The notes under the pieces are model-generated. The model made no database searches and was not told the origin of the DNA. It was given only the letters and a program-made list of their open reading frames with translations. Of a DNA stretch of 33,895 nt, positions 23,782 through 25,059 are shown piece by piece (positions within the stretch are counted from its first letter, which is position 1; each line of letters begins with the position of its first letter). The translations under genes and the position numbers were made by a program. The stretch covers positions 1 through 33,895 of the forward strand of contig JALRAS010000016.1 of the NCBI GenBank assembly GCA_023262495.1. The letters are read 5' to 3'. The DNA comes from Bacteroidia bacterium (GTDB taxonomy: Bacteria > Bacteroidota > Bacteroidia > UBA4408).

Positions 23782-24153
23782 TTAAAAAGGTAGATCATCG
23801 GCTGGCTCACCGGAGTTAAGCGGCTCTATACTTGCAGCTGGCTGACTGTTTTGTGTTGCAGCGGGAGCTGTTGCTTTTCCACCTTCAATTTTCCATGCTT
23901 CAAGAGAATTAAAATATTTTACCTCTCCTTGCGCATTGGTCCACTCGCGACCTCTTAGGTTAAAGTGTACCTTTATTTCATCACCCAAGTTTACATTATC
24001 GATGAGCGAGCATCTGTCTTGTGTAAGTTGAAATGATAAGATTTGCGGGTATTGTGAACTGTTTTCAGTAATCACGAACTCGCGCTTGCGGAATTTGTCA
24101 GAAACCTGACTTTCTTGAAATTTTGCTTTTAGTGTACCTGTAATTTGAAACAT
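23782..24153 (-). CDS. DUF3127 OB-fold protein with SSB-like acidic C-terminal tip
   Basis: 123 residues matching the DUF3127 family, mainly from Bacteroidota and of unassigned function. Residues 1-90 look like an OB-fold: strands ITGTLKAKF, KREFVITE, ILSFQLTQD, GDEIKVHFNLRGREW and KYFNSLEAWKIE. Residues 91-115 are a low-complexity Ala/Pro/Ser/Gln linker, and the last five are DDLPF. Bacterial single-stranded-DNA-binding proteins have the same plan: OB-fold, flexible linker, and an acidic tip ending D-D-D-I-P-F that recruits repair and replication partners. I infer a nucleic-acid-binding role with SSB-type partner contacts; this is not demonstrated. It lies 12 bases after the flavin reductase gene on the same strand, probably co-transcribed. 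Confidence 0.87.
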   Translation of the reverse strand: MFQITGTLKAKFQESQVSDKFRKREFVITENSSQYPQILSFQLTQDRCSLIDNVNLGDEIKVHFNLRGREWTNAQGEVKYFNSLEAWKIEGGKATAPAATQNSQPAASIEPLNSGEPADDLPF

Positions 24154-24165
24154 GATATATAAGTA

Positions 24166-25059
24166 TTAAATTGTTTCGGATAGAAGTATTTTCCATGCAG
24201 TAGCGCTATCATTTTTATTTAAAAAATGCTTAGCTGCCTCATGAATGGCAATAGGGCCTTTTTGTTTTAGTTTAAATTCATCGCACACAAGCGTATACTC
24301 GGCACTTTTGATGTAGTTGTCAATATCAGCTGCTGTAGGTAATTTTTCTACATTTCCTAGTTTGCCTAAATCGTTTCCGGTAAGGATGCTGCTGTTTCTA
24401 ATTTCAGCAGGTATGGCATCTACACCAATACCTAATGAGGTGAGCGGCTTAGGCACTTCAAAAAGGGCATTGCCGGAGTTGCGGCTATACCAATCGCTAC
24501 CTAAGCGGGCAACAAGATCTATTTTGTGTTGATCGATATTTCCTACACTGTCTAGTATACTTTCATGTATATGAATCTTCACGATTTCGCATACGATTAA
24601 GTTACCCGCACCGCCTTCGTTACCAAGTGCAATAACTTCTTTTACTATACACTCCATTTGTACCGGGCTTTCCTTTACTCTAAATGGTTTTACTAATTCA
24701 GATGGAACGGGTGTAAATCCAGCTTTCTCAAATTCATTTACTCCGTATGGATATTCGGTACTTGATAATGACATCTGCTGCACCATATCGTAATTAACCG
24801 CATTCAAAACTACTTCGGGCAAATGCTTCACATTATCGAGGGTATGTTTAGTGGTATTGTTGCGAACCCTTCGGGCAGGCGAAAAAATAGCTATTGGAGG
24901 ATTGCTGCTGAAAACGTTGTAGAAACTAAACGGACTCAGGTTAGGCGTGCCATCTTCATTCAATGTACTGGCAAAGGCAATAGGTCGTGGAGCTACAGCT
25001 GAAAGCAAATAGGAATGGAGCTTTGGCGTGGCAATATCTTTGGGGTTGATTGTTAGCAT
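24166..25059 (-). CDS. Flavin reductase-like (FMN-binding split barrel) protein
   Basis: 297 residues of the flavin-reductase-like family, which bind FMN in a split beta-barrel and reduce flavin or act as flavoprotein oxidoreductases. Diagnostic features are the N-terminal SAVAPRPIAFASTLNEDG (about 20-37), NLSPFSFYNVFSSNPPI (about 40-56) and FSPARRVRNNTTKHTLDN (about 59-76), the usual flavin phosphate/isoalloxazine contacts. A C-terminal region (about 200-297) extends beyond the core, as in the longer members of the family. Partner enzyme and substrate are unknown. First gene of a two-gene leftward unit with DUF3127; an upstream -7 element leaves a very short leader. Confidence 0.88.
   Translation of the reverse strand: MLTINPKDIATPKLHSYLLSAVAPRPIAFASTLNEDGTPNLSPFSFYNVFSSNPPIAIFSPARRVRNNTTKHTLDNVKHLPEVVLNAVNYDMVQQMSLSSTEYPYGVNEFEKAGFTPVPSELVKPFRVKESPVQMECIVKEVIALGNEGGAGNLIVCEIVKIHIHESILDSVGNIDQHKIDLVARLGSDWYSRNSGNALFEVPKPLTSLGIGVDAIPAEIRNSSILTGNDLGKLGNVEKLPTAADIDNYIKSAEYTLVCDEFKLKQKGPIAIHEAAKHFLNKNDSATAWKILLSETI

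Follow-up and report, generated by a model that had tools for sequence, protein, structure and literature searches.

Bacterial single-stranded DNA binding proteins (SSBs; PF00436), of which Escherichia coli SSB and Bacillus subtilis SsbA are examples, combine an OB-fold domain of 104–110 residues with a flexible linker and an acidic C-terminal tip of the pattern D-D-x-[LI]-P-F. SSB is generally considered universal, and in model bacteria the tip is taken to be essential. Close to this group stand PriB, an OB-fold SSB paralogue of the primosome, and the accessory SSBs of Firmicutes such as SsbB, which occur as a second SSB alongside the main one. PriB is described as lacking the SSB C-terminal domain (PMC8509808), SaSsbC is an example of the accessory type (PMC5945547), and docking of the E. 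coli SSB tip has also been described (PMC10164576, PMC10018359). SSBs of psychrophiles end in DLPF (PMC3991886), and nothing further of relevance on tail-less or Bacteroidota SSBs was found in open-licence papers. Among phage proteins, the family PHROG 4932 is named 'single strand DNA binding protein'; this name is already known from PHROGs and several GenBank records and is not new here. The name is a prediction, and no experimental test behind it was found in the open-licence literature.

Here we describe a chromosomal protein of this type from the window, by which we mean the whole 33,895-nucleotide stretch of Bacteroidia DNA that was analysed. The protein (P0001) belongs to DUF3127, a family mentioned in PMC8004638; no mention of its accession PF11325 was found in open-licence papers, and earlier work could have been missed. 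It shares with bacterial SSBs the OB fold, the flexible linker and the acidic tip, but it is not recognised by PF00436, the DUF3127 domain has only about 90 residues, and the gene is a separate, single-copy one alongside that of the canonical SSB. It matches PHROG 4932 over its full length including the tip, and the phage homologues are annotated as SSBs, but the gene is part of the chromosomal core and not of a phage. PriB is among the structural matches of DUF3127, which differs from it in having the linker and tip; relative to SsbB and SaSsbC, DUF3127 is far more diverged, and here it is the main SSB that loses its tail. We propose, with a probability of about 0.75, that DUF3127 acts as a second SSB, sharing and in several lineages taking over the partner-recruiting role of SSB, with both its ssDNA binding and its docking being inferred.

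The DUF3127 gene and its neighbours

The open reading frame is on the minus strand and runs from an ATG through 123 codons to a stop (Table 1), while the plus strand of the same interval contains many stops. The PF11325 profile matches residues 4–90 with 96 bits against a curated cut-off of 27, so membership in this family is met. Comparison with PHROGs yields a match of residues 3–123 to phrog_4932, tip included, and a second match of residues 57–123 to phrog_44 (E 1.4e-6), which is also an SSB family. The linker is rich in A, P, S, T, Q and N, and the C-terminus reads PADDLPF. A convergent menaquinone-biosynthesis gene (PF02621) has its stop codon almost abutting that of the DUF3127 gene, and a flavin-reductase-like gene on the same strand (window coordinates 24166–25059) lies 12 bases upstream and recurs in 69 of 124 homologous DUF3127 loci. 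These neighbours indicate an ordinary chromosomal gene rather than a prophage gene.

Table 1. Coordinates of the DUF3127 gene and of the segments of its product within the window.
Feature	Coordinates	Strand	Basis
DUF3127 (PF11325) SSB-like protein P0001, 123 aa	23782..24153 (including stop codon)	-	Pfam E 1.5e-27; phrog_4932 E 1.3e-32
OB-fold domain, residues 1-90 (b1-b2-b3-a-b4-b5)	23884..24153	-	AlphaFold2 pLDDT 90-96; top PDB matches are SSBs
Linker, residues 91-118, low-complexity, unconserved	23800..23883	-	pLDDT about 52-57; about 3.2 bits mean column entropy
SSB-Ct-type C-terminal tip (DDLPF), residues 119-123	23785..23799	-	Near-invariant in family; sole [DE][DE]xPF-stop of the 2.99-Mb assembly

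Fold and relationship to SSB

We took an SSB-like plan to comprise an OB fold of the SSB type, a disordered linker that varies in length and sequence, and a conserved acidic tip ending in P-F. An SSB would in addition bind ssDNA, assemble from OB folds as a homo-tetramer or homo-dimer, and dock its tip on RecO, PriA, RecQ, ExoI and others; for DUF3127 the ssDNA binding and the docking are inferences only, the former from fold and phage context. The AlphaFold2 model of the monomer is confident throughout the first 90 residues (the pLDDT values in Table 1 are block means), and the best 50 PDB matches in a structure search are all SSBs, mitochondrial SSB (Rim1) or PriB; the best has an E value of 9.7e-6, and PriB ranks 27 and 46. 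The best viral structural matches of the model are DUF3127 proteins and phage SSBs. An OB fold of SSB type is accordingly met, and the fold foreseen in the initial annotation holds, with bacterial SSBs as the nearest solved structures. The disordered, variable linker is met as well (pLDDT 52–57; 3.17 bits), as is the tip (below), and the proposed domain order, in which a low-complexity linker joins a 90-residue OB domain to a terminal DDLPF, is confirmed at this locus.

The relationship is harder to see in the sequences. PF00436 has no match to P0001 even at E < 1, so membership in the Pfam SSB family is not met and homology to SSB is remote at this level; P0001 alone finds only a weak match to a Thermus SSB among PDB sequences (E 1.2). 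With a profile of the DUF3127 family, SSBs account for 16 of the 17 PDB matches (best E 7.2e-6). Iterative jackhmmer searches joined DUF3127 and SSB, but because the tails may have helped to join them, profiles of the OB domain only were used instead. An OB-only HMM of Bacteroidota SSBs matches DUF3127 proteins with E values from 5e-4 to 9e-3, and an OB-only profile-profile comparison of DUF3127 with SSB aligns 33 columns with an E value of 2.9e-5 and a probability of 74%. Two phage members match PF00436 under its cut-off, at 3.3e-6 (the DUF3127 protein of phage RAP44) and 1.8e-4. For scanning the collections, a single distant profile built from 44 sequences was too diverse, and two sub-alignments were used. 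We regard it as close to certain that DUF3127 is an OB-fold relative of SSB. P0001 is on this evidence SSB-like in its working yet outside the PF00436 family, and its binding to ssDNA is inferred.

OB folds are found also in RNA-binding and other proteins, and P0001 has a match to IF-3 (E 0.17, chance level), so DUF3127 could instead be an OB protein that binds RNA, of the cold-shock or IF type, with a different use for its acidic tip. The leading structural and profile matches, however, are all to SSB or PriB, and the phage homologues sit in a context of DNA recombination and replication; we consider an RNA-binding role very improbable.

Conservation of the tip

In this genome the pattern [DE][DE]xPF-stop has one match, against two in a reversed control, which is the chance level, and the argument for the tip therefore rests on its conservation in the family. 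The homologous loci were found by patterns in the OB domain and not by the tip, the counts are unfiltered, and the sets behind them may overlap. In one set, each of the 59 chromosomal homologues has acidic residues followed by a final P-F, usually as DDLPF, and so has each of 19 taken from both near and remote relatives (L110–L128), making about 78 of 78; in the set of named genome contigs 79 of 80 end in PF, the exception having one extra residue (DDLPFF). The viral homologues are less uniform, with a PF end in 123 of 160, preceded immediately by two or more acidic residues in 115. An alignment of 72 sequences was made for the fold, excluding four loci whose ends lack the tip, overrun or diverge (L316, L419, L432 and L435). 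In it the column entropy averages 1.67 bits over the OB domain, 3.17 bits over the linker and 1.04 bits over the final six residues, and P122 (72/72) and F123 (71/72) rank with the best conserved positions of the protein. The last six residues are thus constrained like the best parts of the fold, and most of the OB domain is less well conserved than the tip. Whether the tail is conserved among homologues had been posed as a check on the initial annotation, and it is, while the linker drifts.

A tip under stronger constraint than most of the OB domain would also suit a protein that engages SSB partners by its tip without binding ssDNA, as a decoy or regulator. Against this stand the aromatic and basic OB positions F/W21, K23, R24, Y35, R69, W/Y71, Y80 and W87, which are conserved in the 72-sequence alignment, and the use of DUF3127 by phages with no other recognised SSB. 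We give this explanation hardly any weight.

Phage homologues

The DUF3127 genes of nine annotated phages generally lie among genes for Erf or a RecE/YqaJ exonuclease, a primase-helicase, NinG and a methyltransferase. Some are located directly between the exonuclease and the primase, in the order Erf – YqaJ exonuclease – DUF3127 – primase. A primase (64 loci) and RecE-like exonucleases (58 and 19 loci) rank among the most frequent neighbours in 160 viral loci, where NinG also recurs. A separate PF00436 SSB was found in none of 56 DUF3127-bearing phage records and contigs, the two sub-cut-off matches being the DUF3127 genes themselves, although many of the contigs are fragments and the absence is only suggestive. 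Both the gene neighbourhood in phages and the name given in PHROGs suggest an SSB function for DUF3127, and together with the conserved tail and the OB fold they support the SSB-like reading first made from the sequence. It is very likely that DUF3127 binds ssDNA, an inference for which there is no biochemistry, and quite likely, if a little less firmly so, that its tip recruits SSB partners, which is inferred without binding data or an analysis of the partner pockets.

About 25 viral contigs (for example L447, L449 and L452; range L328–L487) encode a phage DUF3127 protein of 86 residues that ends after the OB domain, without linker or tip. The existence of this subgroup indicates that the tip is not always needed.

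The canonical SSB in this genome and genus

A single PF00436 SSB was found in this genome. Its C-terminus reads HNNDSTSQT, without a tip, and its gene is directly before gldE (PF01595/CBS). With the tip of the housekeeping SSB lost, the DUF3127 protein is the only one found to end in [DE][DE]xPF-stop in the 2.99-Mb assembly. A frameshift or truncation of the SSB was considered and rejected, since there is no [DE][DE]xPF-stop nearby and the SSB ends are degenerate in three other assemblies of the same genus too (DDFSS, HADNI and APDTPF). Other tip-bearing proteins that might replace SSB as a hub were also sought; DnaB and XseB with such tips were found in other genomes and none in this one. Each of the four genomes of this genus encodes a DUF3127 protein that ends in DDLPF, and three of four family members outside the genus keep an SSB tip of DDLPF or NDLPF. 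The suggestion that DUF3127 may take part in the network of SSB partners, or vie with SSB for them, is consistent with these observations and can be made more precise: the canonical SSB here has no tip to compete with. We lean slightly towards DUF3127 being the main hub in this genome, again by inference.

Two further features of these ssb regions were seen. Directly after ssb in this genome, GldE (CNNM-CBS-CorC) and the GldD lipoprotein (PF25593) are fused in one 645-residue frame (L597, 5044–6981). Three genomes of the genus have tandem short SSB paralogues of about 117 residues without tails (L233 in G296, L157 in G297, L234 in G298), none of which occur in this genome.

Distribution of DUF3127 and loss of the SSB tip

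DUF3127 is present in 171 of 296 genomes sampled across the phylum, in 21 of 26 nearer genomes, and in 72 of 73 sampled genomes of the same class, nearly always as a single copy; that it is a near-universal chromosomal gene of this class is new. Twenty genomes in six families have a tip-bearing DUF3127 and no tip-bearing PF00436 protein: this genome (G000), G296 and G297 (f1), G304 (f53), G317 (f66), G099 (f2), G007 (f3) and thirteen of family f4. The count is limited to genomes in which all PF00436 genes were read, and the DUF3127 tip of G099 and a few others comes from a pattern search. For most of the thirteen f4 genomes the SSB consists of the core alone (111–115 residues), and in five other f4 genomes (G368, G371, G380, G381 and G383) six-frame profile searches of the assemblies gave no PF00436 match at all; four of these are 99% complete and G371 is 79% complete. 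A mixed SSB/DUF3127 profile finds only DUF3127 in these five, each with a DDDLPF-type end. G380 also has a second, tail-less DUF3127 paralogue (L582) beside the tip-bearing copy. Family f4 is probably Weeksellaceae, a guess supported by one Chryseobacterium locus (L283).

The reverse situation, in which a chromosomal DUF3127 has lost its tip and the SSB has kept it, was not seen, the one tail-less copy (L582) being a second paralogue. Where DUF3127 is absent and the SSB was read, the SSB tip is kept in 22 of 24 genomes (nineteen of L080–L109, together with G307, G318 and G319); in G301 and G309 (93% and 91% complete) no tip-bearing SSB and no DUF3127 was seen. There are also genomes in which SSB and DUF3127 both retain a complete tip, and the transfer of the tip is therefore not general. 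We put at even odds the more specific proposal that some f4 bacteria have lost the canonical SSB and have DUF3127 as their only SSB, and that others, including the genus of the window, have a tip-less SSB core with DUF3127 alone recruiting partners.

These distributions bear on whether DUF3127 is merely an accessory SSB for special ssDNA tasks such as natural transformation, recombination or phage-like strand annealing, comparable to Firmicutes SsbB, with the canonical SSB remaining the replication hub even where it has no tip. Most genomes do have a tip-bearing canonical SSB alongside DUF3127, recombination genes adjoin the phage members, and DUF3127 is missing from several genomes of the class. 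However, class-wide presence (72/73), nearly always in single copy, is more like a core gene than a special-purpose one, and in the many lineages with a tip-less or absent canonical SSB the hub role would be left empty. We consider the accessory role unlikely.

For a second SSB that shares the partner-recruiting role, the following scheme can be envisaged. The OB domain of DUF3127 would coat ssDNA, as its fold, homology and phage context suggest, and the DDLPF tip, on its flexible linker, may dock in the pocket that accepts the SSB tip in RecO, PriA, RecQ, DnaG and others, an idea that draws on its near-invariant conservation. With canonical SSB and DUF3127 both bearing tips, redundancy could have made the SSB tip dispensable. 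Several lineages have lost it, among them the genus of the window, in which no protein other than DUF3127 was found that could supply it, and in five genomes of one family DUF3127 is apparently the sole SSB left. If this is true, a core Bacteroidota gene filed as a DUF is a second SSB, and a partner-recruiting tip moves between unrelated-looking genes. The DUF3127 system would then allow a direct test of the tip's share in SSB function and give a widespread DUF a candidate role, and DNA-repair studies in Bacteroides, Flavobacterium and Chryseobacterium that count only the annotated SSB would call for caution.

Other proteins with SSB-like tips

SSB-like ends were seen on several other proteins. 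The DnaB proteins of several Bacteroidota end in ..DDDDDFPF, ..DDEDDVPF, ..NDDVPF or ..DDEVPF, and a second DnaB-like protein ends in ..EKDDLPF (L499 in G012, L500 in G095, L505 and L506 in G103, L510 in G088, and L518 in G310); a DnaB tip could recruit partners that bind the SSB tip, such as primase, to the helicase. The small subunit of exonuclease VII (XseB, PF02609) encoded at L501 (185–457, in G007) ends in NEDLPF. Finally, an Abi_C-domain protein (L503, in G309) and an unclassified TIR-/nucleotide-sensor-like protein (L504, in G308) both end in DDLPF, and these are possibly defence proteins with an SSB-like tip, or the resemblance is due to chance.
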